Positions 25,301-55,398 of a stretch of 64,000 nt of DNA are shown here, piece after piece. Within the stretch, counting starts at the first letter, position 1. Every line of letters starts with the position of its first letter. Location: contig NZ_JASHKQ010000008.1 of assembly GCF_030056795.1 (NCBI RefSeq), forward strand, positions 1 through 64,000. The letters are read 5' to 3'. The notes beneath the pieces are model-generated. The model did not search any database, was not told the DNA's origin, and saw nothing but the letters and a program-made list of their open reading frames with translations. Source of the stretch: Rhodococcus sp. IEGM 1381. Lineage in GTDB: Bacteria; Actinomycetota; Actinomycetes; Mycobacteriales; Mycobacteriaceae. The position numbers were made by a program, and so were the translations under genes.

Positions 25301-26152
<852 letters not shown>

Positions 26153-26217
26153 AAGCCGCGCGCACAGACTTGCAGTAGCAACCGCAAGAAAACCCGAGCG
26201 AATACAAGGAAAAAGAA

Positions 26218-26652
26218 ATGCCCCCGAAGAAGAAGAAGCTAGCCGGGATCATCAAGCTTCAGATCCAGGCCGGTGCCGCCAACCCGGCACCGCCCGTCGG
26301 CCCCGCATTGGGCCAGCACGGCGTCAACATCATGGAGTTCTGCAAGGCGTACAACGCCGCGACCGAGTCGCAGCGCGGCAACGTCGTGCCGGTCGAGATC
26401 TCGGTCTACGAAGACCGCACGTTCGACTTCAAGCTCAAGACTCCTCCCGCTGCCAAGCTGCTGCTCAAGGCTGCAGGCGTGGCAAAGGGCTCCGGCGAGC
26501 CGCACAAGACCAAGGTCGCCAAGGTGACCATGGATCAGGTGCGCGAGATCGCCAAGACCAAGGCCGAGGACCTCAACGCCAACGACATCGATCAGGCCGC
26601 GAAGATCATCGCCGGCACTGCTCGCTCGATGGGCATCACCGTCGAAGGCTGA
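26218..26652 (+). CDS. rplK: 50S ribosomal protein L11
   Basis: A 144-residue protein starting [40 protein letters not shown] is the canonical N-terminal L11 block. It forms part of the GTPase-associated centre. It is 65 bp after nusG and 75 bp before rplA; both gaps are without obvious hairpins. Confidence 0.97.
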
Positions 26653-26727
26653 TTTACCCAGAAATACACGTGGGAGAGCCGGCCAGGCTCGTCAACCACA
26701 CTGAACTCGAACGAAGGACAGCAAGAC

Positions 26728-27447
26728 ATGGCAAAGCGCAGCAAGGCATATCTCGAACACGCCGCCAAGATCGACCAGGACAACCTCTACTCGCCTCTCG
26801 AAGCCGCAAAGCTGGCCAAGGAGACCGCGTCGAGCAAGTTCGACCCCACCGTCGAGGTTGCAGTGCGACTCGGCGTCGATCCCCGCAAGGCCGATCAGAT
26901 GGTGCGCGGCACCGTCAACCTTCCCCACGGCACCGGCAAGACCGCTCGGGTTATTGTTTTCGCCGCTGGTGAGAAGGCCGCAGAGGCCGAGGCAGCAGGA
27001 GCCGACGTCGTCGGCGCAGAAGATCTGATCGAGCGCATCCAGGGCGGATTCCTGGACTTCGACGCGGCGATCGCCACCCCGGATCAGATGGCCAAGGTCG
27101 GCCGTATCGCCCGTGTCCTCGGACCGCGTGGCCTGATGCCGAACCCGAAGACGGGCACGGTCACCAACGACGTGACCAAGGCTGTCAACGACATCAAGGG
27201 CGGCAAGATCAACTTTCGCGTCGACAAGCAGGCCAACCTGCACTTCGTCATCGGTAAGGCCTCGTTCGACGAGACCAAGCTGGTGGAGAACTACGGCGCA
27301 GCGCTGGACGAGATCCTGCGTGCAAAGCCGTCGTCGGCCAAGGGTCGTTACGTCAAGAAGGTCACCGTCTCGACCACCACTGGACCCGGCGTCCAGGTCG
27401 ATCCGAACCGTACGCGCAACCTCCTCGAGGACGACGCGAACGCGTAA
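26728..27447 (+). CDS. rplA: 50S ribosomal protein L1
   Basis: A 239-residue L1 protein (L1 stalk). [21 protein letters not shown] and [15 protein letters not shown] are family signatures. ATG 26728 is preceded by GAAGGA. A strong terminator follows 15 bp after the stop. Confidence 0.97.
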
Positions 27448-27462
27448 TTCGACAGCTCCGAA

Positions 27463-27498
27463 CGAAGGCCGGTCTCCCTGCGGGAGGCCGGCCTTCGT
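27463..27498 (+). terminator. Terminator after rplA
   Basis: CGAAGGCCGG-TCTCC pairs with GGGA-GGCCGGCCTTCG in a long GC-rich stem with a small loop. It separates the ribosomal operon from the convergent lipG-like gene. Confidence 0.75.
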
Positions 27499-27518
27499 CG
27501 TGTGGTCCTGGCGAAAAT

Positions 27519-28430
27519 CTAGGCCGCGTTCGCGCGAGCGAAGTTGGCCAGGATGATGCCGCTGATGCGGTCGAGCAACGCTGCGGGTAAGTCGTGTGCC
27601 ATGCCGTCGATCAGCGTGAGCTCGGCACCCGGGACGGCGCGGGCGATGGCCTTGCCACAGGACGGTCGGACCAGTCTGTCGGCGGTGCCGTGAATGACCG
27701 TGGTCGGTGCGGTGATCTTCTTCGCGTAGGGCCGCAAGTTTCCGGTGCCGGTGATCGCAGCCATCTGACGCACGACGCCGGACGGGTTGTAGTTCCGCTC
27801 GTACATCACCTGCGCGATTTCGAGTTGCTCCTCGAGTGGAGTGCGGAAGCCGGGGGAGCCGATGGTTGACAGCGTCTTCGCCGAATGCGCGATGATCTCC
27901 TCTCTCGTGGCGTCCTTCCCGACGCCACCGAGCAGGGGCAGCAGGGCGCGTGGGTCCGGCGGAGGCAGGAACGGCTCGTTGGTGCTCGAGAAGAGAATGC
28001 CCACCGATTCGGTTCGTTCGGGGTAGCTACCGGCGAAGACCTGAGTGATCATCCCGCCCATCGACGCACCGACGACGTGCACGGTATCGATGCCGAGGTG
28101 ATCGAGTACTCCGACGGCGTCGGAGGCCATGTCGACGATCGTGTACGGAACGTCCGAGGACATCCCGAGCTCGTGTCGGATCATTCGAAGGATCGTCGAT
28201 CCCCGCACCTTCTGCCCGGTCATCTTCGTGGACAGTCCGATGTCGCGGTTGTCGATCCGGATCACTCGGTATCCCGCATCGACGAGGCGGGTACAGAAAT
28301 CCATGGGCCACAACGTCAATTGCGCGGACAGGCCCATGATCAGCAGGACCGCGGGATCATCGACCGAACCCATGTCTTCGTACGCGATCTCGACGGAGTT
28401 CGCCGGCGCGATGCCTTGTTCGATTCTCAT
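27519..28430 (-). CDS. lipG: Alpha/beta hydrolase, LipG-like
   Basis: A 303-residue alpha/beta hydrolase. Nucleophile elbow GASMGG has Ser123; the acid is in HGTADRL (about 251) and the base in DGMAHDLP (about 279). The oxyanion region is LLIMGLSAQ. Remembered M. tuberculosis LipG (Rv0646c), also just past rplKA, is very similar in length and in its DNRDxGLS and VVGASMGGM segments. The mycolate methyltransferase genes that lie between in M. tuberculosis are absent. It is 10 bp downstream of the CocE-type gene, so probably one transcript. Confidence 0.85.
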   Translation of the reverse strand: MRIEQGIAPANSVEIAYEDMGSVDDPAVLLIMGLSAQLTLWPMDFCTRLVDAGYRVIRIDNRDIGLSTKMTGQKVRGSTILRMIRHELGMSSDVPYTIVDMASDAVGVLDHLGIDTVHVVGASMGGMITQVFAGSYPERTESVGILFSSTNEPFLPPPDPRALLPLLGGVGKDATREEIIAHSAKTLSTIGSPGFRTPLEEQLEIAQVMYERNYNPSGVVRQMAAITGTGNLRPYAKKITAPTTVIHGTADRLVRPSCGKAIARAVPGAELTLIDGMAHDLPAALLDRISGIILANFARANAA

Positions 28431-28440
28431 GATGTCGTTC

Positions 28441-30387
28441 CTACCAGCCCGGCTCGCCGAGTATCGGCACCACCAGGTAGCTCGGGCTCTCCGGGTCGAT
28501 GCTGATGTCCTGTTTGCGCAGCCGAGTACGCAGTAGATCCGGCAAGATCGGGATGAACCGTGGTGTGTCGGTAGCGAATACGTCGACTCGGAGTCGGTGG
28601 CCAGTCGCGATGACGGCCTCGGTGGTGAGGATGTCTATGTCGAGAACCATGGGTTTGCCGACGGGCACCGGGAGCAGCGCCGCTTCGGTGAGCGGGTGGT
28701 ACGGCCGGGTGTAGTCGCCGTTCGGGGCGAACAACGAACGCTCGTCGTCCACGGCTCGGCGCGAGGCGAGAAGTGCGCCGTTGCTGAGCACCGTCGAAGT
28801 CCCGTCCGGAGCGACGTCGCAGATCATGATGGCCCACAGCGCTTCCCGCGCGTGGCAGACCACGCGCAGGTGCAGATTCATCGGACCGGACAGAACGGCG
28901 TCCGACTCGGCCGGACCGGTGGTGAAGGTAACTGCGGCACCTTCGGCGAATCGGTTGTCGTAGGTGAATCCACCGCCCAACACGGCCGTCACGCCGGCGA
29001 GCACCTGGGTGGTGTCACGCGAGACGACGGCCCGCAACGAGGGCCGCACCGTCAGGACATCGCGGTCTGTGGCGGGTGCGGTGGTGAGGCTGCCGTCGGC
29101 GACGGCATGGGCTGCGGTGCCCGAGGGCGCAGCCGACAGGTAGAGTCTCCGGGGCTGCGCCATGGGAGCTGGAAAGCGCCCGTGCGCAGTCCAATTGCCA
29201 CCCTGCTGACGCAGGGTGACGGGACCGTAGTTCTCGATTCCGTTGTCCACGTCGCGCAGCCACTTGTCGAACCAGGCCCGTTCGAGCACGTCCAGGCGAG
29301 GCGGGAAGCCCGGTTCGCCGAAGCCGATTCCCGGGTTTCCGTGGTATCCGTCGCCGACGAGCAGCTGCTTGAATCCGCGTTCGAGAGCGAGCCGATTGTA
29401 GATGTCCGGTGCGGAGCCGCCGAAGATGTCGTGCCAGCAGCCGTACAGAAATGTCGGTGCCGAGATGTCTTCGATGACGGCATCGATGGTTTCGTAGTAC
29501 TCGTTGTCGTAGATTCGCGGATCTCTACCTGTGACAAAGCCTTTGGCCAGATCGAGCAGATTTGTCGCCGGGGATCGAGCGCGATCGCGGAGCCAGTCGA
29601 GCGTGTCGATTCCGCCGACCGCAGGCGCCCATTTGAGCCCGTTGACGGCCGCGAGCCACAGCGGAATGAACGCCGAGGTGGCACCTCCGGTGGCGAAGAT
29701 CTCGCGCACGATGTCCACCGACCCTTCGACCGCGAACACCGCGTCGAGGCCGGCAGGCTGCTTGGCTGCGGCCTGCAGGGCGTTGATGGCGGAGTACGAG
29801 ATTCCGGCCATCCCGATCCTGCCGTTGCACCACTGCCTGCGTCGGGCCCACTCGATCACCTCGAGCGAGTCGAGCTGTTCTCGGGGGCCCAGCACGTCCC
29901 AGGTGCCCGAGGAGCTGCCGGTGCCGCGGACGTCGACGATCATCTGCACGTACCCGCTGCGCACGAGATGACGGTTGACCGAGAGCAGGTCGGCCGCCCC
30001 GCCCGCCACCACTCGGGTGATCTCGGTGATGCCGTCGAATCTGGTTCCGGTCAGGTCGAATGCGGACGAGAACGCTCTGATCGCACGGCCGAGGACCGGG
30101 GTCTCGAGGACGGTGTCGATGCCCTTGATCAGCAGCTTGTTGTACGGCGTGAGGTTCAGGACGGTGGGAAACGTGCCCTCCACCGCCCGTCCCGACGCGT
30201 CCGCGGGGCGAAAGACATAAGCGCGCAATGCCGTTCCGTCGCTCATCGGAATGCGCACGTTCGCCGTGACGGACACCCGCGGGTAGCGCGGTTGCTCGCG
30301 CACGATGGCCGCCCATGCCGCCGCTGCGTCGCCGCCGCTCGGATCGCGTACGGGTTGCAGGAGGGGGTGTGGCTGTACTGCCGTCAT
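28441..30387 (-). CDS. CocE/NonD family serine hydrolase
   Basis: A 648-residue hydrolase of the X-Pro dipeptidyl-peptidase/CocE class. The nucleophile is in GMAGISYSA (Ser197), the acid in YGCWHDIF (about 316-323), and the base in GDGYHGNPG (about 348). The C-terminal jelly-roll domain (from about 420) is present. N-terminal VRIPMSDGTALRAYVFRP is the usual opening strand. No signal peptide is clear, so cytoplasmic. Substrate unknown; relatives cleave esters or amides. Upstream partner of lipG. Confidence 0.88.
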   Translation of the reverse strand: MTAVQPHPLLQPVRDPSGGDAAAAWAAIVREQPRYPRVSVTANVRIPMSDGTALRAYVFRPADASGRAVEGTFPTVLNLTPYNKLLIKGIDTVLETPVLGRAIRAFSSAFDLTGTRFDGITEITRVVAGGAADLLSVNRHLVRSGYVQMIVDVRGTGSSSGTWDVLGPREQLDSLEVIEWARRRQWCNGRIGMAGISYSAINALQAAAKQPAGLDAVFAVEGSVDIVREIFATGGATSAFIPLWLAAVNGLKWAPAVGGIDTLDWLRDRARSPATNLLDLAKGFVTGRDPRIYDNEYYETIDAVIEDISAPTFLYGCWHDIFGGSAPDIYNRLALERGFKQLLVGDGYHGNPGIGFGEPGFPPRLDVLERAWFDKWLRDVDNGIENYGPVTLRQQGGNWTAHGRFPAPMAQPRRLYLSAAPSGTAAHAVADGSLTTAPATDRDVLTVRPSLRAVVSRDTTQVLAGVTAVLGGGFTYDNRFAEGAAVTFTTGPAESDAVLSGPMNLHLRVVCHAREALWAIMICDVAPDGTSTVLSNGALLASRRAVDDERSLFAPNGDYTRPYHPLTEAALLPVPVGKPMVLDIDILTTEAVIATGHRLRVDVFATDTPRFIPILPDLLRTRLRKQDISIDPESPSYLVVPILGEPGW

Positions 30388-30626
30388 GGGAAACGATTAG
30401 ACCGTCGAAGGGCCCCGTTTGTCATGCGGAATGGAAATCACCCGTGATCCCGCCGGGTCGGTCGGTCGATCGGACTACATCTATTGGGAGTGTTCTCAAC
30501 GGCGGTTGAGTGTCGCTGTGGGTCCTACCAGAGATTCTCGAAACCACGTATTTCGCCACCGACCCCGTTGCTAGCGTCTTCCTCGACGTCAGGTTGATTC
30601 GAGCTATTTGCTGCAGGGGAGCACAC

Positions 30627-31865
30627 ATGAATTTAGAGGCACTGTTCGGGGACGGATCGCTTCGACCGCTATGGCCGCATGCGGATGCGCTGATCACCAA
30701 CGAATGCCCGGGGCTCCGCTTCGCCGGGAAGTACGCCGACGTCGTCGCTGTGAGCAACGGTGATCCGACCGCGCTGCGTCCGTTCATCGACGAGGACACT
30801 CGTCGGCGCGTGGCCGAAATGGCGCCACCACGCACCGACACCGCGCTCGTGCTGGGAGCCAACGGCTTTCTCGGTGCGCACCTGATCGGCCGTCTCACTC
30901 GTGATGCCGCTGTCGAGGTCGTCTATGCAATGGTGCGTCCCACCGAAGAGGAATCGGCACTCGAGCGTCTGCAGCGCACGTTCGATCTGTACGAGATCAC
31001 CGTGGATGCCGACAAGATCCGCATCGTCGAGGGCACTCCGACGAAGTTCCGTTTCGGTCTCGACAAGGCGGCCTACTACGAGCTGGCTGCCGGAGCGGGG
31101 CAGATTTTCAACTGCGCCAGCTCGACCGATTACACGGAGAGCTACGCCGATCTGCGCGACGACTGGTTCGTGAGCGTGCTGCGCATCCTCGAATTCAGCA
31201 TCACTTCCACCCGCAAGCACCTGACCTATGTCGGCAGCATCGGCGCTCACCTCTACCAGAAGCCGGAGGACTTCCGCCGCGCCGATTCGTGGTGGTACTC
31301 CGGGTACGCGCAGATGAAGTGGGTCAACGCGACGCTGCTCGGATGGCTGTCGATGTCGGACACCTACTCGGTCACCCTGTGCGAGGCTCCCTACATCCTC
31401 GGCAGCACCGAACTGGGGCGTGATCCGGGTCGGGTCTACAGCTTCTGGCGCATCATCGAACTGGCGATCGCCGCCGGTGCCATCTGGGACGGGCCGGGAA
31501 TGAACTACGTTCCGGTCGACGTGATGTGCGACGTCATGGCGAGCAATGCGCTGCGGAGTCATCCTCTGACGCGGATGTTGCCGAGCAATCCGACCGGCTA
31601 CGGCCATGACCTCTACGCCGAGCTCCTCGGCCTCGACCTGGTGAGCTGGGAGGAATTCAAGGAGCGTGTCAGTGTGCGCATCTCGCCTCGTTTCGCCGAG
31701 ACGATGCTGGCCGACAACATCGACAAGCTGATGCGACTGGTGCACAAGCCCGAGGCGATTCTGCCTGTCGACCACGACATCTCCTGGTGCGATCACCGCC
31801 GGCTGTTCGAGCTCTACTTCGACAAGGCTCAGCTCAAGACGCTCACGCCCACTGCCGCCAACTGA
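30627..31865 (+). CDS. SDR-type NAD(P)-dependent reductase, thioester-reductase-like
   Basis: A 412-residue protein. A unique 70-residue N-terminal segment precedes an extended SDR domain. The nucleotide motif is LVLGANGFLGAHL (about 74-86) and VVYAMVRPTEEESALERL resembles the reductase domains of carboxylic acid reductases and NRPS terminal reductases. The catalytic pair YAQMK is near 226-230. ATG 30627 follows AGGGGAG. First gene of a five-gene operon; the next begins 1 bp after its stop. The substrate could be an acyl thioester or a keto-lipid; not determinable here. Confidence 0.75.
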   Translation: MNLEALFGDGSLRPLWPHADALITNECPGLRFAGKYADVVAVSNGDPTALRPFIDEDTRRRVAEMAPPRTDTALVLGANGFLGAHLIGRLTRDAAVEVVYAMVRPTEEESALERLQRTFDLYEITVDADKIRIVEGTPTKFRFGLDKAAYYELAAGAGQIFNCASSTDYTESYADLRDDWFVSVLRILEFSITSTRKHLTYVGSIGAHLYQKPEDFRRADSWWYSGYAQMKWVNATLLGWLSMSDTYSVTLCEAPYILGSTELGRDPGRVYSFWRIIELAIAAGAIWDGPGMNYVPVDVMCDVMASNALRSHPLTRMLPSNPTGYGHDLYAELLGLDLVSWEEFKERVSVRISPRFAETMLADNIDKLMRLVHKPEAILPVDHDISWCDHRRLFELYFDKAQLKTLTPTAAN

Positions 31866-31866
31866 C

Positions 31867-32064
31867 GTGGCGGACGGATTCGAGCCAACGTCGGTACGCC
31901 TGCGAGACGTACCCATCGGCCGCGAGGTGACCAACGGCGTTCTCTCGCTGGGCTTCTACGTGGTGTGCGGGCTGATCGGGCTGCTGCCCGGCTCGCTGCG
32001 GAATCGGGCAGCCGATGCCTTCGTGACGTGGTCGGAGAGCGTCGACGAACAGCGGCACAGCTGA
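31867..32064 (+). CDS. Small protein with one membrane segment
   Basis: A 65-residue protein starting at GTG 31867. One hydrophobic stretch (about 24-43, including SLGFYVVCGLIGLLPG) and a charged C-terminus. It is squeezed between the SDR gene (1 bp gap) and the decarboxylase-like gene (1-bp TGATG overlap), which argues that it is a real, coupled gene. No family recognised. It might be a membrane anchor for the neighbouring enzymes. Confidence 0.6.
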   Translation: MADGFEPTSVRLRDVPIGREVTNGVLSLGFYVVCGLIGLLPGSLRNRAADAFVTWSESVDEQRHS

Positions 32065-32789
32065 TGTCGTGGGTTCGGTGGGCAGTCGGCCTCGGTGCGG
32101 TGCTGGCAGCTCCGTTCGCGTTGTTCGTGTACTGGCGGACTCGGTTCTTCTTCCGCGATCCGCACCGAGTACCGCCTGCCGATCCGCGGGCGGTACTAGC
32201 CCCGGCCGACGGGTTCGTCACGTACGTCAAACGCGTGGAGGCGGGCAGTACCGCGTTCGCCGTCAAGAAGGGGCGGACGATCGTCCTCGACGAGATCGCG
32301 GGAGTCAGCTCGACCGACAGCGGTTACCTGATCGGCATCTACATGTCCGAATACTCGGTGCACCGCAATCGAATTCCGGTGTCGGGCACCGTCGGCATGC
32401 GTCGCCACCGGTCCGCCGCACCGTTCAACAAGTCGATGGCCAGGGTCGGCGCGAACCTGTTGACCCGACGCACTCCCTACGACGAGGGCTGCGACTATCT
32501 GCTCACCAACGAGCGGCTCACCATCTCGATCGAGCACGAGTCCGGTGCCGTTGTCACGGTGACGCAGATTGCGGATCTGTGGGTCGACCGCATCGTCGCG
32601 CACGTCGCCGTCGGTGACAGCGTCGAACGCGGCGAGCAGTACGGGATGATCCGGTTCGGGTCGCAGTGCGACGTGTTCGTGCCGGACTCACTCGTCGATG
32701 AGATCAGCGTTCGGCCAGGGAAATACGTGTTCGCCGGGGAGACGACAGTGGCCCGTTCGCCGATCCCAGTCAACGGCAGTCAACGATAA
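32064..32789 (+). CDS. Phosphatidylserine-decarboxylase-like pyruvoyl enzyme
   Basis: A 241-residue protein of the short PSD type. An N-terminal membrane segment (about 5-22) is followed by LAPADGFVTYV, YSVHRNRIPVSG (His100) and IRFGSQCDVFVP. In this family self-cleavage between Gly and Ser (here Gly199-Ser200) makes the pyruvoyl group. It may decarboxylate phosphatidylserine or another seryl/amino-acid lipid; the operon context, not a phosphatidylserine pathway, suggests the latter. ATG 32064 overlaps the preceding stop by 1 bp. Confidence 0.8.
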   Translation: MSWVRWAVGLGAVLAAPFALFVYWRTRFFFRDPHRVPPADPRAVLAPADGFVTYVKRVEAGSTAFAVKKGRTIVLDEIAGVSSTDSGYLIGIYMSEYSVHRNRIPVSGTVGMRRHRSAAPFNKSMARVGANLLTRRTPYDEGCDYLLTNERLTISIEHESGAVVTVTQIADLWVDRIVAHVAVGDSVERGEQYGMIRFGSQCDVFVPDSLVDEISVRPGKYVFAGETTVARSPIPVNGSQR

Positions 32790-32801
32790 CGAAGAGGGAC
32801 A

Positions 32802-33977
32802 ATGATCACGATCGAAGAGGTCGCCGGTAAGGCTGGCTGGCGCGAGTTCGAGGCCGTCGCGGACCTGGTCTACCACGGTGATCCGTATCGTCTCCCCGAC
32901 GAGTCCATGGATCTGCGTCGAGTACTGATCGCACCGCCGCCCTCAGTCGCCGCCACCCGCATCACGCAGGCATTTCTGGCGCGCGAGAACGGAATCGTCG
33001 TCGGTCGCGTCGTGGCAATCCACGATCTGTCGTTCACCGAGTACACGGGGGAGTCGATCGGCTTCTTCGGCTTCTACGAGGCCGTCGACGACCACGAGGT
33101 CGCGACAGGTCTGCTCGACGCCGCTGCGGCATGGGTCTCCGGCCGCGGCCTGGCCACGATGTCCGGACCTTTCGGACCGTCGATGTTCTACAGCGCAGGC
33201 ATCGTCGTGGACGACGCACCGGCACTTCCTCTGGTGGGTATGCCGCACAATCCGCTGTACTACGCGGCCCACTTCGAGAAGTGGGGCCTCGTCGGAATCA
33301 AGGATTTCTACAGTTATCTGTTCGATGATCCGTGCGTGATCTTCAACCGTCCCGAATATGCCCGTCACATCCAGATATTCGAGAAGGTCAAGGCCCGGTC
33401 GGAGGTGACGATCCGGTCGATGAAGTATCGGACGCTGCGTCGCGACGCACGTGTCGTCCGGGACCTGTACAACAAGACGTTCGTGAATTTCTGGGGCTTC
33501 TCGCCTCTGTCGTTCGTCGAACTGTACGAGTTGCTGAAAATGATGCTCCCCGTTCTCGATCGCCGGCTGACCCTGATGGCGGAGTTGGACGGAAAGCCGG
33601 TCGGCTTCCTCATGGGAATTCCGGACGTCAACCAGGCGGCGGCGAAGGCTGCGCATCTGAAGTCTCGGTTGCTCCGTGATCTCGTGACCCTGTGGCATGT
33701 CAAGCGCTCCGGCCGAACCGACGTCATCGACGGCGTACGGGTCGACATGCTGTTCGTCGACCCCGACTGCCCGGACAAGGCGGTGTCGTCGTTGCTCATC
33801 CTGGAAATGTCCGTGCGGATGCGCGATCTCGGCTTCACCCGAGTCGAAGCTGCACCGGTACTGGACGACAGCCCTTGGATGAAGGGGTCGATTCTGACGC
33901 GGATGGATCAATCACCGCATCGGACGTATCGCATCTTCAACCGGGAACTCTCCGACTTCGGGTCACAGCCGGCATGA
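32802..33977 (+). CDS. YghO-type GNAT acyltransferase-like protein
   Basis: A 391-residue protein with two GNAT-like halves. The opening VADLVYHGDPYRLPDE...LIAPP, the central ATMSGPFGPSMFYSAG and the NPLYYAAHFEKWGLVGIKDFYSY segment follow the YghO family plan. The second half has LTLMAELDGKPVGFLMGIPD and a conserved VDMLFVDPDC acetyl-CoA-like site. Bacterial ceramide synthase described in Caulobacter belongs to a related GNAT group (from memory), so an N-acyltransferase acting on a lipid amine is a reasonable guess. Its stop overlaps the MMPL start by 4 bp. Confidence 0.65.
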   Translation: MITIEEVAGKAGWREFEAVADLVYHGDPYRLPDESMDLRRVLIAPPPSVAATRITQAFLARENGIVVGRVVAIHDLSFTEYTGESIGFFGFYEAVDDHEVATGLLDAAAAWVSGRGLATMSGPFGPSMFYSAGIVVDDAPALPLVGMPHNPLYYAAHFEKWGLVGIKDFYSYLFDDPCVIFNRPEYARHIQIFEKVKARSEVTIRSMKYRTLRRDARVVRDLYNKTFVNFWGFSPLSFVELYELLKMMLPVLDRRLTLMAELDGKPVGFLMGIPDVNQAAAKAAHLKSRLLRDLVTLWHVKRSGRTDVIDGVRVDMLFVDPDCPDKAVSSLLILEMSVRMRDLGFTRVEAAPVLDDSPWMKGSILTRMDQSPHRTYRIFNRELSDFGSQPA

Positions 33978-36241
33978 CCGCGGACACGGCAGTTCGCGAA
34001 CCCGACTTGGCTTCCCGCAGCGTCGGCTACCGCTGGGGCCGGGTGATCGCTCGGCATCGTTGGGTCGTGCTCGCGGTGTGGGTCATCCTTGCCGCGGGCT
34101 CGGCGTTCCTCTACCCAGGTCTACAGCACTCCCTCGTCGGTGCGAACTTCTCGGTTCCCGGTACCGAATCGAGCCGGGTCGACGAATTGATCGAAGAGAA
34201 CTTCGACTCGTTCGGGTCCGAGCAGATGGTCGTGACGTTCACGTCGGAGACATCGACGGTTCAGAGCCCAGCGTTCCGAGATCGGGTATCGGAGGTCATC
34301 GCGTCTCTCCGGCAATCACCTGATGTGCTGCGCGTGGTGGCTCCCTACGAGACCGCAGGTCTGGTGCCACAGCTTTCCGAGGACGGCACTTCGGCACTGG
34401 CACTGATCGGAGTGGGAGGGGATGCACGCGATCGAATCGGTGTTGCCGAGCGCATTCAGGAGTTGATCGCTGGAGCATCGAGCGACGGCGTCGAGGTGTC
34501 GGTCACCGGCTACTCTCCCATGACCGTCGACTTGACCAGGGTTCAATCGGACGACGCGGCGCGCGCAGAGAGCATCGGTCTTCCGGTGGCGTTGGTGCTC
34601 CTGACTCTCGCACTCGGATCTGTTGTCGCGGGAATTGTTCCGCTGGTCACGATCGGGATCGGCGTGCTGACCGCGTTCGGTGTATTCGCGTTGCTGTCCA
34701 ATGTTCTGACGTTCGACGTGCTCGTGACCACGGTCGCGGCCATGTTCGGGCTCGGACTCGGTATCGACTACGCACTGTTCATCGTGAGCCGGTTTCGGGA
34801 GGAGATGGACCGCACGGCGGGAGTGCCGCGAACGGGCAGCGAACGAGAGCGAACCGACGAGGCCGTCGGTACCGCGCTGGGGACAGCCGGCCACACGATC
34901 GTCATTTCGGGGTTGGTCATTCTCATCGCGCTGGGTGCGCTGACCATCGTCGACGTTCCCGCAGTGCGCAGCATCTCGTTGGTCGTGGCACTGACGGTCA
35001 CTTGTGTGGTCGTTGTGGCGTGGACGTTGTTGCCCGCGATACTCGCCGTCCTCGGCACCCGGATCGGAAAATGGTCGCTGCCGAAGCGGTTCCAGCCGTC
35101 GTCGGTCGGCGAGCACGCAGCGGCCATCCCCACGTGGTGGTCGCGCTGGGCCCGGCACGTCATCGAGCGACCCTGGCGCTATACCGCCCTGCCTGCGGCA
35201 CTGTTCTTCGTCTGCCTGATTCCGATCGGCTCGATTCAGTACGGAGTCGATCTGGGAGCCGACGCGCTGAGCGCCGAGCCCAGCGGACGTGCCAACGCCG
35301 TTCTCATGGACAAATTTGCACCAGGAACAATTTCTCCCATCAACGTTGTGTTCACCGGGGAGAACGATCAACCGCTCGATTCTGTGCAGGCGGAGACCGT
35401 CACGTCCGTCGCCGACGATATTCGAGCCGACGATCGCGTCGCGTATGCAATTGCCCAGCAGGAGGGCGGCCGCGCGCTGCTGATTGTGGTGCCGTCGGTA
35501 CCGATCGACTCGACCGAGGCCACCGATCTGGTTGGTTCCATTCGAGATCAGGCGGTTCTCGCGGGCTTGCGTGACGGAACGATCGCTTCGGTCGGCGGCA
35601 CAACAGCGTTGGTCGTCGACGCCTCGCACGAGATATCGAGCAAGTTCCTGTGGGTGGTCCTGGCAGTACTTGCGTTCTCCCTGGTGTATCTCGGGGTCGT
35701 CTTCCGCAGCGTGGTGATCCCGATCAAGGCGGTGGCAATGAACGTCTTGGTCACCGGTGCCGCGCTGGGAGCTACGGTCGCGGTGTTCCAATGGGGTTGG
35801 GGCTCTGCATTACTGGGCTTCGAGAGCCCCGGATACATCCAGGTCTACCTGCCGGTGACAGTGTTTGCCGTGGTGTTCGGCCTCTCGATGGACTACGAGG
35901 TGTTCCTGATCGGCCGCATGCGTGAGGTGTTCGTACGCCTGTCGAGCAGGTCCGACAGTCCCGACACCGACACCGACACCGCGAACGACACCGCCGTCGT
36001 CGACGGGCTGGAGCACACAGCGAGACCGATCACGGCTGCGGCAGCGATCATGATCGCGGTGTTCGCGAGTTTCCTCACCGCCGATGTCCTCGAACTGCAA
36101 CAGTTCGGCTTTGCCCTGGCAGTAGCCGTTCTGTTCGACGCCGTACTGGTCCGCATGATGTTGGTGCCCGCGATGATGAAACTGTTCGGTGCCCGCAATT
36201 GGTGGCCCGGAGTGCGTCGGACTCAGTCGGTCGGCAACTGA
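33974..36241 (+). CDS. MMPL family RND transporter
   Basis: A 755-residue inner-membrane transporter with two RND repeats. One helix (about 27-47) is followed by an extracytoplasmic domain (about 50-190), a helix bundle with GLGIDYALFIVSRFREE (about 258-274), a second extracytoplasmic domain, and a second bundle with GLSMDYEVFLIGRMRE. Actinomycete MMPL proteins export lipids. Last gene of the operon with the SDR, PSD-like and YghO-like genes, hence the likely exporter of their product. Its 3' end overlaps the convergent anti-sigma gene by 19 bp. Confidence 0.9.
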   Translation: MTADTAVREPDLASRSVGYRWGRVIARHRWVVLAVWVILAAGSAFLYPGLQHSLVGANFSVPGTESSRVDELIEENFDSFGSEQMVVTFTSETSTVQSPAFRDRVSEVIASLRQSPDVLRVVAPYETAGLVPQLSEDGTSALALIGVGGDARDRIGVAERIQELIAGASSDGVEVSVTGYSPMTVDLTRVQSDDAARAESIGLPVALVLLTLALGSVVAGIVPLVTIGIGVLTAFGVFALLSNVLTFDVLVTTVAAMFGLGLGIDYALFIVSRFREEMDRTAGVPRTGSERERTDEAVGTALGTAGHTIVISGLVILIALGALTIVDVPAVRSISLVVALTVTCVVVVAWTLLPAILAVLGTRIGKWSLPKRFQPSSVGEHAAAIPTWWSRWARHVIERPWRYTALPAALFFVCLIPIGSIQYGVDLGADALSAEPSGRANAVLMDKFAPGTISPINVVFTGENDQPLDSVQAETVTSVADDIRADDRVAYAIAQQEGGRALLIVVPSVPIDSTEATDLVGSIRDQAVLAGLRDGTIASVGGTTALVVDASHEISSKFLWVVLAVLAFSLVYLGVVFRSVVIPIKAVAMNVLVTGAALGATVAVFQWGWGSALLGFESPGYIQVYLPVTVFAVVFGLSMDYEVFLIGRMREVFVRLSSRSDSPDTDTDTANDTAVVDGLEHTARPITAAAAIMIAVFASFLTADVLELQQFGFALAVAVLFDAVLVRMMLVPAMMKLFGARNWWPGVRRTQSVGN

Positions 36242-36948
36242 GCCGACGCCAGCACGGAGCCGTCGGAACCGCGGATCTCGATCTCGGTCACGTCCTGGCG
36301 CAGCACCGCGGCGTTCATTCGGCATTCGATGGTGACGTCGCTACCGAGAAAGGTGCCGGATGGGCGCTCGACACCCGACCGGTCGACGAGAACCACCTCG
36401 TACGGGCCGCGGTCGGAGACACCGTCCATCTCCAGGACGGTCTCGGTGCCCCACGTGTGGGCCACCAGGCCTCCTTCGATGTCGACGCTCGGCGTGCTCG
36501 TCGTGAAGGCGATTTCTTCGTAGGCACCGAGGGTTCCCGGCGGTCCGGTGATCGCGGCCGGTGGATTCTCGGGCTGCTGGTGGTAGGCGTCGACTCCGAG
36601 TACGGCCCCGCTGCCGACCACCAAGCCCACGATCGCGGCCGCAGCGGCCACACCAGCTGATCGGCGCTGCATTCCGAATCGTTGTGTTCCGAATCGCTGC
36701 CGCTCGGTGTTGACCGTCGCCGCGAGGATGCGCTCGCGTAGTTCGGGTGCCGTCGGTGGTTCGAGCCAGGGCTCGGTCGGTCCACGCCGGCCCAGGATGT
36801 CCGTCATCGCGCGCAATTCGGCGATCTCGGTGTCGATCGTGAGGTCCGCCGCAGCGAGCTCGCGCAGTTCGGAGGTTTCGGCGTCGTCGAGATCGTCGCC
36901 GACTGCAGCGGCGATCAACTCGGCTCGGCGATCGTGTGATGCGCTCAT
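36223..36948 (-). CDS. Membrane anti-sigma factor
   Basis: A 241-residue protein. A cytoplasmic N-terminal helical part (1-95; no zinc HxxxCxxC motif) is followed by one membrane helix (about 98-118) and a beta-rich external domain, as in RskA-like anti-sigma factors. ATG 36948 overlaps the sigma-factor stop (ATGA), giving translational coupling and the usual 1:1 arrangement. It probably holds the ECF sigma factor inactive until an envelope signal. Confidence 0.82.
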   Translation of the reverse strand: MSASHDRRAELIAAAVGDDLDDAETSELRELAAADLTIDTEIAELRAMTDILGRRGPTEPWLEPPTAPELRERILAATVNTERQRFGTQRFGMQRRSAGVAAAAAIVGLVVGSGAVLGVDAYHQQPENPPAAITGPPGTLGAYEEIAFTTSTPSVDIEGGLVAHTWGTETVLEMDGVSDRGPYEVVLVDRSGVERPSGTFLGSDVTIECRMNAAVLRQDVTEIEIRGSDGSVLASAQLPTD

Positions 36949-37514
36949 GTTTCCTCCTTTCCGTCGAGGTGGTCTCGTAGGGCTCGCATTGCGTAGAAGG
37001 TGCGGGTGCGCAGTGTTCGTACGGCAACCCCGGTCGCTTCGGACAGCTCCGCGTAGGTGCTGCCGCTCAGGTGCACTGCGACGACGACCTGCCGATGCTC
37101 GGGGGAGAGCAGGGCCAGCGCGGCGATGATGCGGAGCCGTTCGTCGACATCGGGGCTGGTGTCGCGCGTGACCCCGCCCGACCCCCGATCGATGTCCTCG
37201 ATCCGGTCCGAGGCCGGCATCGGCATCCTCGTCAGCGATCGCTGAACATCGACGATCACGTTGCGTTCGATGGCGAACAGCCACGTTCGCAGCGACCCGC
37301 GCCGCGGCTCGAATCGGGACCGCGCTCGCCATGCCCGAAAGAAGGTCTCCTGAACGCAATCCTCGGCCAGAGTTCTGTCGCGGAGAGCGTTGACGGCGAA
37401 CCCGAGCATGGCCGACGCGTGCTCGTCGTACGCGGCAGCGACGTCGAAGTCCAGTTCGATCACGCTCCCGATGCTCATGACAGTGGATACGTCGGTGGGC
37501 CCCCGGACGTTCAT
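36945..37514 (-). CDS. ECF-family RNA polymerase sigma factor
   Basis: A 189-residue sigma factor. Region 2 (AMLGFAVNALRDRTLAEDCVQETFFRAWR...LRTWLFAIERNVIVD) is at about 34-92 and region 4 (LALLSPEHRQVVVAVHLSGSTYAELSEATGVAVRTLRTRTFYAMRALR) at about 133-180. The start could instead be Met13. Divergent from the CHRD-sortase pair across 107 bp, where a GAAC-N17-CGTA element lies. Confidence 0.9.
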   Translation of the reverse strand: MNVRGPTDVSTVMSIGSVIELDFDVAAAYDEHASAMLGFAVNALRDRTLAEDCVQETFFRAWRARSRFEPRRGSLRTWLFAIERNVIVDVQRSLTRMPMPASDRIEDIDRGSGGVTRDTSPDVDERLRIIAALALLSPEHRQVVVAVHLSGSTYAELSEATGVAVRTLRTRTFYAMRALRDHLDGKEET

Positions 37515-37547
37515 ATCCAGGACTGAAATATTTGTTTACCGAGCTTT

Positions 37548-37572
37548 GAACATTCTGGCATCGGCGCTCGTA
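37548..37572 (+). promoter_or_regulatory. ECF-type promoter candidate for the CHRD-sortase operon
   Basis: GAAC (37548-37551), 17-base spacer, CGTA (37569-37572) matches the general GAAC/CGT layout of ECF-sigma promoters. It reads towards the CHRD gene, 50 bp upstream of its ATG, and lies next to an ECF sigma gene. Confidence 0.45.
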
Positions 37573-37621
37573 CACCTTCCACGGGCTCGCCTGCCCGATA
37601 CTCCCACGGAAGGCACACGAG

Positions 37622-38371
37622 ATGACCAGACGCTCGATCCCACGCCCGGCAATGTCGATCCGATCCACCGCCACAGCGCTCGTCGGTGGTACCGCGGCCC
37701 TGATGCTGTTCGCCGTTGCCCCGGCCGGTGCCGATACGCCTGTCGCCGAACCGGACTCCTTCACCAGCGCATTCACGGCCATGGCCACTCCCGAACAGGT
37801 GCTCAACGGTGAGGGCGTCGCCACTCCGGGGCAGCCCGGCGCGATGGGTACCTTCACGCTGCGCATCAACTCCGACCTCGACATCGTCTGCTACGACATC
37901 ACTCTCGAAGGCGTGACCGGCGACTACATGAGCCCGGCCAAGACCGCCACGCACATCCACCAGGCGGCGGCAGGCGCAGCAGGACCTCCGCGTCTGGCAT
38001 TCCCGAACCCGACCCCCATCGGCGACGGCCCGCGTACCAGCAGCGGCTGCATGCAGGGACCGTTCACCACCGGCCTCACTCCGGCCGGTGCCACCGCCGA
38101 CAGTGGTACCGGATTCACCCTCGATCAGATCGAAGCCGATCCCGCGGCCTTCGCCGCCGACACCCACACCGTCGACTTCGCGGCGGGAGCGGTGCGCGGC
38201 CAGCTCACCCAGATTCCGGTCGGGTCCGTTGCGACCGGTGGCGGTGGGTCGGCGCTGGCGGCGTCCGACTCGGCGTCGAGCTCGGTGCTGCCCGTCGTCG
38301 GCGCGGTGGCTCTGGGTGCGATGGTCGTCGCGGGCGTGACGTTCGCGGCTCGACGCGAGGTGCGGAGCTGA
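37622..38371 (+). CDS. CHRD-domain surface protein with LPxxG-like sorting tail
   Basis: A 249-residue exported protein. A signal peptide (about 1-35) is followed by a CHRD domain (about 45-195; repeated features such as GTFTLRINSDLDIVCYDITLEG and ATHIHQAAAG). A Ser/Ala linker and a C-terminal tail follow: LPVVG (223-227), a hydrophobic helix, then RREVRS. This is the layout of a sortase substrate, although position four is Val rather than Thr. A class F sortase is the next gene, with overlapping stop and start. Confidence 0.82.
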   Translation: MTRRSIPRPAMSIRSTATALVGGTAALMLFAVAPAGADTPVAEPDSFTSAFTAMATPEQVLNGEGVATPGQPGAMGTFTLRINSDLDIVCYDITLEGVTGDYMSPAKTATHIHQAAAGAAGPPRLAFPNPTPIGDGPRTSSGCMQGPFTTGLTPAGATADSGTGFTLDQIEADPAAFAADTHTVDFAAGAVRGQLTQIPVGSVATGGGGSALAASDSASSSVLPVVGAVALGAMVVAGVTFAARREVRS

Positions 38372-38964
38372 GATATTCGGTCCTGATCGCGGCCGCGGCC
38401 GCGGCTTTGGTGGTGGTGGGCTGTTCCCCGCCACCACCAACGCCACCGGTGCCGGCCGCCCCCGTGTCCTCGCAGCCGTCGTCGGGCGCTGCCCCGACTG
38501 CGCCTGCCGTGGACTCGGTCAGACCGGCCCCGACGCGGGTGAGCGCCGTGGACATCGGTCTCGACGAGCCGTTGATCGGCCTGGGTCTCACCGAATCGGG
38601 GGAGATGCAGGTGCCCACCGACTACGACGACGTCGGATGGTTCACCGGAGGTGGCAGACCCGGCGCGATCGGAAGTCCGACGGTGATAGCCGGGCACGTC
38701 GACTCGACGACCGGTCCCGCGGTGTTCGATCGTCTGTCGGAACTCGGAACCGGCGATGTCGTCGCGGTCGAGGACGAGGCGGGTGGTCGAGCCGAGTACC
38801 GCATCGACGAGATCGGTGACTACGGCAAAGTCGAGTTCCCGACGGCGCTGGTCTTCGGGGCGGTGCCTGCCGACGAGATCCGGCTCATCACCTGTTCGGG
38901 TGACTTCGATGCAGCCGTGGGCAGCTACGAGCGCAACCTGGTTCTCTACGGGGTGCGCATATGA
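38368..38964 (+). CDS. Class F sortase, probable lipoprotein, possible CTG start
   Basis: A sortase with the full catalytic triad: His in IAGHVDS (His110), Cys in LITCSG (Cys176) and Arg in YERN (Arg189), counted from CTG 38368. The family core LGLTESGEMQVPTDYDDVGWFTGGG is class F. CTG 38368 overlaps the CHRD stop (CTGA), has GAGG seven bases upstream, and gives a lipoprotein signal ending VVVGC (Cys19). The alternative TTG 38407 would leave no signal peptide. It probably attaches the CHRD protein to the envelope. Confidence 0.82.
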   Translation: MRYSVLIAAAAAALVVVGCSPPPPTPPVPAAPVSSQPSSGAAPTAPAVDSVRPAPTRVSAVDIGLDEPLIGLGLTESGEMQVPTDYDDVGWFTGGGRPGAIGSPTVIAGHVDSTTGPAVFDRLSELGTGDVVAVEDEAGGRAEYRIDEIGDYGKVEFPTALVFGAVPADEIRLITCSGDFDAAVGSYERNLVLYGVRI

Positions 38965-38984
38965 CAGTGCGAACGGCGAACGTT

Positions 38985-39014
38985 TTGGAGTTGACGCCGA
39001 ACGTGTTGTAACCT
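38985..39014 (+). promoter_or_regulatory. rplJ-rplL promoter
   Basis: TTGGAG (38985-38990), 18-base spacer, TAACCT (39009-39014). It lies about 290 bases upstream of the rplJ ATG, leaving a long transcribed leader. Confidence 0.5.
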
Positions 39015-39049
39015 GGTCGACGGTTCGGATCACGAGTGCTTGCACTGGT

Positions 39050-39300
39050 GCCCTGACCGCCCAATCAAGTTCTACCCAAGACCGTTGGTCACCGCCTTCT
39101 CGAAGGATTCACTTCCGGGAGTTGCGCGGTTGAAGGTCCGAGATCGCTTCGGACGGCCCACGCAGGAGAACGAGGTAGGGAACCTGTATGCAGTCCTCGC
39201 GGCTGCCCGCTCGTTCACGCCCCGTGTGCTTCTTGCGCCGGGGCGTTCGTCGTTTTCCGGCCCTCTCGCGATCGACACAACTTCCCACGAGAGGAGGCGA
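39050..39300 (+). ncRNA. Ribosomal protein L10 leader (autoregulatory)
   Basis: The 290-base leader of rplJ contains AAGACCGTTGGTCACCG, then AAGGTCCGAGATCGCTTCGGACGGCC and GGAGAACGAGGTAGG. This layout resembles the actinobacterial L10 leader that binds the L10-L12 complex to repress translation. No ORF fits this stretch. Boundaries are approximate; recognition is by eye. Confidence 0.6.
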
Positions 39301-39303
39301 AGT

Positions 39304-39885
39304 ATGGCAAAGCCCGAAAAGGTCTCAGCAGTATCGGAGATCACCGAACAGTTCAAGGGTTCGACGGCTGCCGTCGTCACGGAATACCGTGGCCTGTCGG
39401 TGTCCGGTCTGACTCAGCTCCGGCGTGCGCTCGGCGAAGGTGCCACGTACTCCGTCGCCAAGAACACCCTGGTCAAGCGCGCAGCAGCCGAGGCCGGCAT
39501 CACCGGCCTCGACGACTTGTTCGTCGGACCGACCGCCATTGCATTCATCAAGGGCGAGCCGGTCGACGCAGCGAAGGCCATCAAGGCCTTCGCGAAGGAC
39601 AACAAGGCCTTGATCGTCAAGGGCGGCTACATGGACGGCGCAACGCTGTCCGTGGACGAGATCAACAAGATCGCAGACCTCGAGTCGCGCGAAATCCTGT
39701 TGGCCAAGCTCGCCGGCGCCATGAAGGGCAACTTGTCGAAGGCTGCAGGCCTGTTCAACGCTCCCGCATCGCAGTTCGCGCGTTTGGCGTTCGCGTTGCA
39801 GGAGAAGAAGGCTGCCGGCGCACCCGCCGCAGCCGAGGCACCTGCAGAAGCAGAAGCACCGGCGGAAGCTCCCGCCGAAAGCTGA
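39304..39885 (+). CDS. rplJ: 50S ribosomal protein L10
   Basis: A 193-residue stalk-base protein starting [34 protein letters not shown] and [12 protein letters not shown] are canonical. The C-terminus is a long Ala/Glu/Pro tail. ATG 39304 is preceded by GAGAGGAGG. rplL follows 93 bp downstream. Confidence 0.97.
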
Positions 39886-39978
39886 TCCGCTGGTATCGGC
39901 GAACAGCTCAGCTCCACACCATCACCGAACACCAGTCGCGGATCAGCGACCAGGTACTTACAGGAAGGACCCGCCACC

Positions 39979-40365
39979 ATGGCGAAGCTCAGCACCGAAG
40001 AATTGCTCGACCAGTTCAAGGAGCTCACCCTCCTCGAGCTCAGCGAGTTCGTGAAGGCATTCGAGGAGACCTTCGAGGTCACCGCAGCCGCTCCCGTCGC
40101 AGTTGCAGCAGCAGGCGCAGCCGGTGCTCCGGCTGAGGCTGCCGAGGAGCAGGACGAGTTCGACGTCGTCCTCGAGTCGGCCGGCGACAAGAAGATCCAG
40201 GTCATCAAGGTCGTCCGTGAGGTCGTCTCCGGCCTCGGCCTGAAGGAAGCCAAGGACCTCGTCGAGAGCGCTCCGAAGGCAATCCTGGAGAAGGTCGCCA
40301 AGGATGCAGCCGAGGCTGCCAAGGAGAAGCTGGAAGCTGCCGGCGCAAAGATCTCCGTCAAGTAA
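39979..40365 (+). CDS. rplL: 50S ribosomal protein L7/L12
   Basis: A 128-residue stalk protein. The N-terminal dimerisation part is [27 protein letters not shown], followed by an Ala-rich hinge and the C-terminal factor-binding domain ([26 protein letters not shown]). ATG 39979 is preceded by AGGAAGGA. A terminator follows. Confidence 0.97.
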
Positions 40366-40414
40366 GACCGCTTCGTTGCAGTCGTACTTCACGCTCTGAA
40401 ATCGAGCGAGTCGA

Positions 40415-40450
40415 GGGGTCGTTCCCACTTCGGTGGGGACGGCCCCTTTT
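40415..40450 (+). terminator. Terminator after rplL
   Basis: GGGGTCGTTCCCAC pairs with GTGGGGACGGCCCC around TTCG, followed by TTTT. A clear intrinsic terminator. Confidence 0.88.
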
Positions 40451-40599
40451 CGGTGTTTTCGGTGGCACCGGATGACTCGTCGTTGTGATCGGTCACGGAC
40501 TCCGCCGGATCGCGTGACACTCGCTCTGCGCCACTGTTTACTCGACCTCGCCGAAGTCCGAAGCGTTCCGAAGGGTTTCGGCCGTCATTGCTTGTGGCG

Positions 40600-40633
40600 T
40601 GTCACAGCTTTGTCGCGCAGGGACTTGTCACAG
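40600..40633. promoter_or_regulatory. Direct repeat TGTCACAG upstream of the mce operon
   Basis: TGTCACAG occurs at 40600-40607 and 40626-40633, 26 bases start to start, about 180-200 bp before mceG. A further weak inverted pair TGGGTT/AACCCA is at 40752-40773. The rest of the 365-bp gap after the rplL terminator has no gene. Possible activator or repressor sites. Confidence 0.35.
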
Positions 40634-40809
40634 TTCCGGCGAGTCGGCGACCGTGTCGCGTGAGATGAGCCACACTGATGCGAGCTCTACAGCCTGACTC
40701 GGGGAAGTTCTTACTGGGCGGTAAGCTCCTGTGTCGGAGCGGACACGTGCATGGGTTACAGTGACGCAACCCACATCTGGGTCGATGTGTACGAATTGTG
40801 GAGGTCAGC

Positions 40810-52587: not shown

Positions 52588-52735
52588 CGTGTGCTTTTCG
52601 GACATCTGTGACCCGCCTGCCACCGAGTTACCATCGCGATTGCGTCCTGGCTTGGGACGAGCCCTGGTTGTTCGGGACAACCATTCTCAGCTCGACAGCC
52701 AGGGGTGGATCCGATGAAAACGGAGCGTGCTGGTC

Positions 52736-55312: not shown

Positions 55313-55398
55313 TCGGCTCGGTCAGTAGTCGGCTGGGGCCGGAGTTCCCGGAAGTTCGTGGACTCCGGCCCCGTCCTGCCCGGCCCCGTCCTGCCCGG
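55305..55398. repeat. Two tandem duplications after the aminotransferase gene
   Basis: GTCAGTAGTCGGCTCG (55305-55320), containing the aminotransferase stop TAG, is repeated with one change at 55321-55336. CCCCGTCCTGCCCGG is repeated exactly at 55369-55383 and 55384-55398. Both lie at or beyond the converging 3' ends. Confidence 0.85.

Follow-up and report, generated by a model that had tools for sequence, protein, structure and literature searches.

The first 64,000 nucleotides of contig NZ_JASHKQ010000008.1 of Rhodococcus sp. IEGM 1381 (hereafter the window, situated on contig C2 of a 5.5-Mb genome) carry a five-gene operon at positions 30627-36241 of the forward strand, which encodes a reductase, a small predicted membrane protein, a paralogue of phosphatidylserine decarboxylase (PSD), an acyltransferase of the YghO family and an exporter of the MMPL family. 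Named relatives put the genome, which belongs to a soil- and plant-associated bacterium, in the Rhodococcus fascians group (Rhodococcoides). The operon is a real and conserved unit of lipid type. We propose, with a probability of about 45%, that it constitutes a self-contained module for lipid tailoring and export, which would produce an N-acylated aminolipid without a serine palmitoyltransferase (SPT).

The five genes form a conserved and co-inherited unit

The unit starts with a stand-alone, thioester-reductase-like extended short-chain dehydrogenase/reductase (SDR) of 412 aa with an NAD_binding_4 domain (30627-31865), followed by a 65-aa predicted one-helix membrane protein with a GTG start (31867-32064), the PSD paralogue (32064-32789; PF02666, with the pyruvoyl site FGS at S200), an N-acyltransferase of 391 aa from a divergent, bacterial-ceramide-synthase-like subfamily of the YghO family (32802-33977; referred to below as the GNAT) and an MmpL3-like MMPL/RND exporter of 755 aa with PF03176 (33974-36241), all on the plus strand. 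The intergenic gaps of +1, -1, +12 and -4 bp reproduced exactly those from which an earlier inspection of the letters and translations (the sequence-only reading) had concluded that the genes are one tightly coupled unit. Relative to three loci of increasing distance (L060, L062 and L064), the ratio of nonsynonymous to synonymous changes (pN/pS) was 0.09-0.38 for the reductase, 0.20-0.63 for the small protein, 0.17-0.33 for the PSD, 0.17-0.42 for the GNAT and 0.20-0.40 for the MMPL protein, that is, 0.09 to 0.63 over the operon. Such purifying selection in all five genes, together with their conserved order, ruled out chance open reading frames (ORFs). No consensus promoter or terminator was found between 30300 and 36500, where shuffled sequences led one to expect 0.9 and 3.1, respectively, a result that is uninformative for this genus; no Rfam match was present within 26000-41000.

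Where the distribution of the unit was examined by genome profile searches, as in the family-wide and class-level sets below, at most four, and in one search eight, candidates were scored per genome, so that absences in these searches are not exhaustive. Among 37 Rhodococcoides genomes, 24 carried the GNAT, the same 24 carried an operon-type PSD, and the other 13 were devoid of both; by coordinates, the PSD gene lay immediately upstream of the GNAT gene and on the same strand in every one of the 24 carriers. The complete five-gene order was present at L052-L063, at L072 and at the Williamsia maris locus L064, and matching by coordinates assigned it to 14 of the 24 Rhodococcoides carriers, the window included. 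Seven Rhodococcoides loci (L065-L071) contained a four-gene core of reductase, small protein, PSD and GNAT, whose three proteins other than the small one were 43-66% identical to those of the window, and for three further carriers (G309, G310 and G319) the check covered the adjacency of PSD and GNAT alone. In Williamsia, the operon PSD was found in six of eight genomes, and in all six the four genes searched for there (reductase, PSD, GNAT and MMPL) followed one another in order. Family-wide, an operon-type GNAT (E ≤ 1e-189) occurred in 30 of 401 genomes, each of them Rhodococcoides or Williamsia, and four more family genomes yielded weaker GNAT matches with no PSD or reductase within the 19-kb stretches around them. 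At class level, the reductase subfamily was detected in 2 of 394 genomes, both of which are operon carriers. Thus, the co-occurrence across Actinobacteria that had been put forward as a check held in Rhodococcoides and Williamsia and did not extend to Actinobacteria in general.

The operon decarboxylase is distinct from the housekeeping PSD

The PSD-like protein matched Pfam PF02666 with an E value of 4.9e-39 and 134.5 bits (cut-off 22). Residues D49, which we take to be the active-site aspartate, H100 (SVHRNR) and S200 (FGS) were invariant in 13 aligned rows, in agreement with the pyruvoyl-decarboxylase FGS site and VHRNR motif recognized by the sequence-only reading. Upon alignment with E. 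coli PSD, H144 and Y137 of the latter coincided with H100 and Y93, both of which were found in 12 of 12 operon PSD rows, and the other PSD of the genome has an F at the position of Y93. As described for PSD (PMC7952604), H144 recognizes the carboxylate, Y137 contacts the phosphate, and the pyruvoyl group binds the amine of the substrate as a Schiff base. Since the residues for carboxylate and phosphate contact are retained, a phosphoserine lipid resembling phosphatidylserine is favoured as the substrate.

All 13 NCBIfam decarboxylase models matching the protein scored below their own cut-offs, and operon PSDs contain stretches of 17 and 12 residues that are absent from the other PSD of the genome. 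Every one of the 37 Rhodococcoides and 8 Williamsia genomes had a housekeeping-type PSD, which was the sole PSD in the 13 Rhodococcoides non-carriers, and in the window genome its gene adjoins a pssA-like CDP-alcohol phosphatidyltransferase gene on contig C20. A tree built from 51 PSDs united the 18 operon rows in one group (100/99), apart from 18 housekeeping-type rows of the family (100/99 in the group table), with long branches that leave the deeper placement unsure. The PSD-like protein as the only PSD of its genome was ruled out by the copy on C20 and in all 37 genomes; the worry raised with the sequence-only reading, that it might be such a sole copy clustering with housekeeping enzymes, was thereby removed. 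Neither this condition nor that of missing co-occurrence refuted the sequence-only interpretation, which is partly supported. Because the housekeeping-type copy occurs in all 37 genomes and the operon PSDs constitute their own clade, basic supply of phosphatidylethanolamine (PE) is not the task of the operon enzyme. Compared with Psd of PE synthesis, the operon PSD shares PF02666, the pyruvoyl serine and the equivalents of His144 and Tyr137, but it is a paralogue coexisting with a housekeeping-type copy and is set apart by its separate clade, its extra stretches and its fixed partners.

The acyltransferase is a divergent member of the YghO family

Pfam detected in the GNAT only a sub-threshold PF00583 match (19.2 versus 20.7 bits), and a PDB profile search gave nothing usable, the best E value being 0.041. 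A tblastn search of plasmid records justified the label 'YghO-type' that had been assigned from the letters, as the product of an E. coli gene annotated yghO covered 98% of the GNAT with 27% identity (E = 1e-35). The characterized ceramide synthase bCerS is presumably a member of the same family. The enzyme has been described as bound peripherally to the membrane on the cytoplasmic side and as acylating a long-chain base (PMC11087976).

Near yghO of E. coli lie genes for an SPT-type pyridoxal phosphate enzyme, an acyl carrier protein, an NAD epimerase and an acyl-AMP ligase, and the order α-oxoamine synthase (AOS)-GNAT-epimerase was seen on Streptomyces and Rubrobacter plasmids. The comparison set consisted of the 28 best non-operon Actinomycetota loci (L082-L109), taken from the 50 genomes, out of 396, in which a match was found. 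An SPT-like AOS was found within a flank of up to 1.5 kb at 17 of these 28 loci, and neither a PSD nor an operon-type reductase appeared in the flanks of any of them. Given this position beside SPT-like genes, such relatives of the operon GNAT probably N-acylate a lipid amine. Judging from these neighbourhoods, the ACYLTRANSFERASE appears to have changed partners, many of its relatives standing beside SPT-like genes and the operon copies beside a PSD.

In a GNAT tree of 59 rows, the 21 operon rows came together as a single clade (100/100) whose stem measured 1.27 changes per site, and this clade was separate from all 20 AOS-adjacent rows. As signature columns we took the 77 in which 18 or more of these 20 AOS-adjacent rows agreed; operon GNATs kept 33 of them, kept 10 partly, replaced 31 and deleted 3. 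The P-D-x-N and W-G motifs were kept, and the C-terminal W-x-L-E-x-N was not. The many changed signature residues fit a new acceptor, and it is likely that the operon GNAT retained its chemistry and altered its acceptor.

Several other settings of YghO-type genes were encountered. On a linear plasmid of Streptomyces sp. NBC_01001 (L193:7763-12289), genes for an AOS, a YghO-type acyltransferase, an NAD epimerase and a condensation-domain protein lie in a row that resembles a compact actinobacterial ceramide cluster. A Rubrobacter radiotolerans plasmid (L194:7707-13299) has an AOS, a YghO-type acyltransferase, an oxidoreductase and an LTA synthase family protein, with CRISPR-associated genes upstream. 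In Roseomonas mucosa (L192:8204-10910, plasmid), a YghO-type gene sits between sterol desaturase family and NTP transferase genes, and genes for a diacylglycerol kinase, a CDP-alcohol phosphatidyltransferase and LptF/LptG permeases are close by. Another partner variant occurs within the family of the window genome, in genome G972 (L144:5443-11047), where a YghO-type GNAT has an epimerase, a fatty acid desaturase and a class III aminotransferase as neighbours; the 19 kb examined contained no AOS match.

The reductase, the small protein and the exporter

The SDR motifs seen by the sequence-only reading were confirmed, with GxxGxxG at 77-83 and S204, Y227 and K231 invariant in 12 aligned rows. 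The reductase matched Pfam PF07993 (NAD_binding_4) with E = 4.3e-26 and scored 118.3 bits against TIGR01746, under the cut-off of 213.35. Among solved structures, its closest chains belong to the peptide synthetase Nrp, a type I polyketide synthase (PKS), MxaA and a carboxylic acid reductase (CAR), all of which we take to be reductase (R) domains. Thus, it is similar to the R domains of nonribosomal peptide synthetases (NRPS) and CARs in its NAD_binding_4 domain, Rossmann motif and S-Y-K residues, and unlike them in being a stand-alone protein of 412 aa, with no adenylation or carrier domain and a score below the TIGR01746 cut-off. An identity with CerR was not supported, as the reductase matched the CerR-like epimerase from the yghO cluster of E. 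coli with an E value of 0.027. Beside the Williamsia maris operon, a CAR-type gene with AMP-binding, carrier and reductase domains is divergently oriented (L064:3843-7370), and at the same position of another Williamsia locus (L139) there is a long ORF with reductase similarity.

The small protein had no Pfam or NCBIfam match. In nine aligned rows, it showed invariant P, Y, G and D residues and one hydrophobic stretch with a 19-residue mean of 1.88, and it was readable at the same position in the four-gene loci, being part of the conserved core.

The last gene product proved to be an RND/MMPL transporter, as had been read from the translation, with PF03176 matching in two stretches (9.7e-83). 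It aligned with the MmpL3 structure 7nvh over residues 21-745 (1.8e-58), including both D-Y pairs, which are presumably the proton relay of MmpL3. Full-length similarity and these pairs relate it to MmpL3, the trehalose monomycolate exporter, but its 258.7 bits fall far short of the cut-off of 1400 of the NCBIfam MmpL3 model, and six other MMPL matches at E ≤ 1e-20 occur in the window genome. Its orthologue in Williamsia genome G800 was 64% identical, and other MMPL matches in six genomes ranged from 28 to 37%, except for a 53% stretch (503-750) in G160. The latter is an MMPL protein of an operon-lacking Rhodococcoides (G160:C38:101588-103795), which is 37% identical over 19-487 and 53% over 503-750 and hence nearer to the operon MMPL than other paralogues are.

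Serine palmitoyltransferase genes and the operon

The sequence-only reading had stated that no SPT or phosphatidylserine synthase gene is nearby. None was found among the scanned proteins near the operon (part of the window ORFs), so the statement held locally, but the genome does contain an SPT-like AOS on contig C12 and the pssA-like gene on C20. The best NCBIfam match of the C12 AOS was SerpalmtaseCFB, with 379 bits against a cut-off of 640, and its gene adjoins that of a 522-aa epimerase-type SDR (L212:3294-6079; G000:C12, ~71.3-74.1 kb); possibly, this pair belongs to a sphingolipid-like pathway in Rhodococcoides. In Rhodococcoides, 18 of the 24 carriers and 9 of the 13 non-carriers had a close relative of this AOS (at least 445 bits); in Williamsia, 2 of the 6 carriers and neither of the 2 non-carriers did. 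The remaining 10 of 30 carriers (6 of 24 Rhodococcoides and 4 of 6 Williamsia) had AOS matches of only 34-40% identity, in the BioF range. Since these 10 carriers have no close copy, the operon does not depend on the C12 SPT-like gene and probably does not form the final part of an ordinary ceramide pathway. The claim that the operon does not match a standard sphingolipid pathway was accordingly upheld for the operon and has to be qualified for the genome, which itself has an SPT-like gene.

Proposed mechanism and alternative explanations

The substrates, the product and the direction of transport that we infer would be as follows. The PSD paralogue would cleave itself at FG/S200 to generate a pyruvoyl group and would decarboxylate a phospholipid that bears serine, the likeliest candidate being phosphatidylserine or something closely related, to leave a free primary amine. 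At the inner membrane face, the YghO-type acyltransferase would acylate that amine, yielding an N-acyl-ethanolamine phospholipid of the N-acyl-PE type; the chemistry places the PSD before the acyltransferase, since only a free amine could enter into the Schiff base at the pyruvoyl group. With low confidence, we suggest that the reductase might convert an acyl thioester to a long-chain aldehyde or alcohol to be built into the lipid or its precursor, and, also with low confidence, that the small membrane protein might tether the PSD, or a complex, to the membrane. The MMPL protein would move the lipid outward. N-acyl-PE has been found in Acinetobacter radioresistens (PMC5945596).

Several observations weigh against this proposal. 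The reductase is its weakest part, given a TIGR01746 score below the cut-off and an operon without a carrier protein, and the PSD-like protein could act on another amino acid. Export by the operon MMPL is not universal, as no MMPL match was found in the 19 kb around each of the seven four-gene loci L065-L071. The SPT link of the wider acyltransferase family is partial rather than general: 11 of the 28 best non-operon GNAT loci had no SPT-like gene in the flank examined, and neither an AOS nor a PSD stood in the examined flanks of any of 24 weaker GNAT loci (L006-L029) or of six further loci (L073 and L143-L147, of which L147 repeats L109), five of these six having an epimerase-type SDR. Finally, reports of N-acyl-PE from bacteria are rare, and in 2018 the authors of the Acinetobacter study knew of none that preceded theirs (PMC5945596).

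Among the alternatives, it is unlikely that the operon specifies a small-molecule pathway, in which the PSD-like protein would decarboxylate an amino acid, either free or bound to a carrier, the reductase would release or reduce a thioester, the GNAT would N-acylate the amine and the MMPL protein would export a lipoamide. Recruitment of the PSD fold for the decarboxylation of amino acids has a precedent in PsiD of Psilocybe, the reductase does resemble NRPS and CAR reductase regions, and a CAR gene is divergent beside the Williamsia maris operon. However, a Pfam scan of the five proteins yielded no adenylation or carrier domain, the phosphate-contacting Tyr of the PSD is retained and an N-terminal hydrophobic segment is visible in its sequence, and a CAR-like neighbour was seen beside 2 of 6 Williamsia operons (L064/L142 by Pfam, and L139 by reductase similarity only). 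We regard as quite unlikely a scattered ceramide pathway of which the operon would be the tail, with the C12 AOS making a long-chain base, the GNAT N-acylating it and the PSD making the ethanolamine headgroup of ceramide phosphoethanolamine. The operon and bacterial ceramide synthesis (Spt, bCerS and CerR; the E. coli yghO cluster) have a YghO-family acyltransferase and a reductase in common, and the genome does have an SPT-like AOS beside an epimerase-type SDR, with a close AOS in 18 of 24 Rhodococcoides carriers. Against this, the operon has a PSD in place of SPT and a reductase unlike CerR, so that neither partner expected of a ceramide synthase is in it; in 10 of 30 carriers the AOS matches do not exceed 34-40% identity (a more divergent SPT is possible there), 9 of 13 Rhodococcoides non-carriers possess a close AOS, and only 33 of the 77 SPT-adjacent signature columns are kept in operon GNATs. 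The standing of a canonical ceramide pathway is thus lowered, a link being possible in the 20 of 30 carriers with a close AOS.

A second, regulated route to plain PE, in which the PSD would duplicate the housekeeping enzyme and its neighbours would remodel ordinary phospholipids, is improbable. All PSD catalytic residues are retained, and the psd and pssA-like pair elsewhere in the genome can provide phosphatidylserine, but the operon PSDs form a deep, separate clade, 13 of 37 Rhodococcoides genomes live without them, and in all 24 Rhodococcoides carriers the PSD adjoins the GNAT and, where inspected, a reductase of the subfamily that was detected only with the operon in the genomes sampled. 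Little probability is likewise left to an aldehyde-based chemistry, in which a fatty aldehyde made by the reductase would be joined to the PSD-derived amine and the GNAT would cap the resulting secondary amine: the reductase resembles thioester-reductase regions acting on acyl thioesters and is present in both the five-gene and the four-gene forms, but the operon encodes no imine reductase or aldehyde-condensing enzyme, and the scheme is purely conjectural.

Probable transfer between genera

The operon proteins of the window were compared with those of four Williamsia genomes, giving identities of 72-73% (reductase), 60-61% (GNAT) and 69-73% (PSD), versus 50-51%, 43-46% and 63-68%, respectively, for three four-gene Rhodococcoides. 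For the housekeeping PSD the relation was reversed, with 67-68% to Williamsia and 77-82% to the same three Rhodococcoides. The GNAT tree, which included outgroups, united Williamsia with the fascians-type rows (100/99). The housekeeping PSD tree placed Williamsia separately (100/99), the remainder being poorly resolved. In contrast to the housekeeping PSD, the fascians-group operon proteins are thus more similar to their Williamsia counterparts than to those of other Rhodococcoides, as would be expected of a module transferred whole, and the simplest reading of these identities is that the five-gene form probably moved laterally between Rhodococcoides and Williamsia. It is possible instead that two old forms underwent differential loss, or that the four-gene lineage changed faster. 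Spread on plasmids was not supported, as the first four genes (30627-33977) had no nucleotide match in 72,556 plasmid records.

Relation to known systems and implications

Among the open-licence papers listed on the five-gene combination, PSD in gene clusters, N-acyl-PE genes, thioester reductases in these genera and Rhodococcus fascians lipids, no description of the operon was found. The operon resembles the PKS-derived bacterial sphingolipid system PfSgaAB in that both are non-canonical bacterial routes to amino-lipids, although for the operon this is a proposal. SgaAB still relies on an SPT-like AOS (PMC12134224), whereas the operon has neither a PKS nor an AOS.

In its fullest form, our proposal would have a dedicated PSD paralogue substitute for SPT as the source of the lipid amine, with a re-purposed ceramide-synthase-type enzyme performing the N-acylation, in an undescribed bacterial pathway that might be the first set of genes for an N-acyl-ethanolamine phospholipid or a ceramide mimic in bacteria, its five-gene form having its own MMPL exporter and having passed between actinobacterial genera; taken as a whole, this stays tentative and is somewhat unlikely. 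If the aminolipid proposal is true, the operon supplies candidate genes for a class of N-acylated aminolipids for which no bacterial enzyme was found in the open-licence papers searched. The YghO acyltransferase family would then not be confined to sphingolipids, and a YghO-type gene alone would not signify sphingolipid production. Rhodococcoides offers a clean test system, with near relatives that have (24) and do not have (13) the module and are directly comparable by lipidomics.

Genomic surroundings of the operon

The GC content of the window was 62-67% in 4-kb steps. The operon sits between genes at 26218-27447 and 39979-40365 that are similar to putative rplJ/rplL, and in genomes G330 and G067 (L214 and L216) an SPT-like AOS and SDR lie close to putative ribosomal protein genes rplJ/rplL; these gene names are assumed by us from the translations. 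Farther downstream, an 861-aa ORF and an opposite-strand MMPL-type ORF (52727-55312 and 54897-57191) overlap by ~400 bp, the 3′ end of the MMPL-type ORF being covered by the 861-aa ORF. The latter contains a class III aminotransferase domain, its best NCBIfam match being PigE, below the cut-off, and a Mce-type gene precedes this overlap by a few kb, at 48147-49646.

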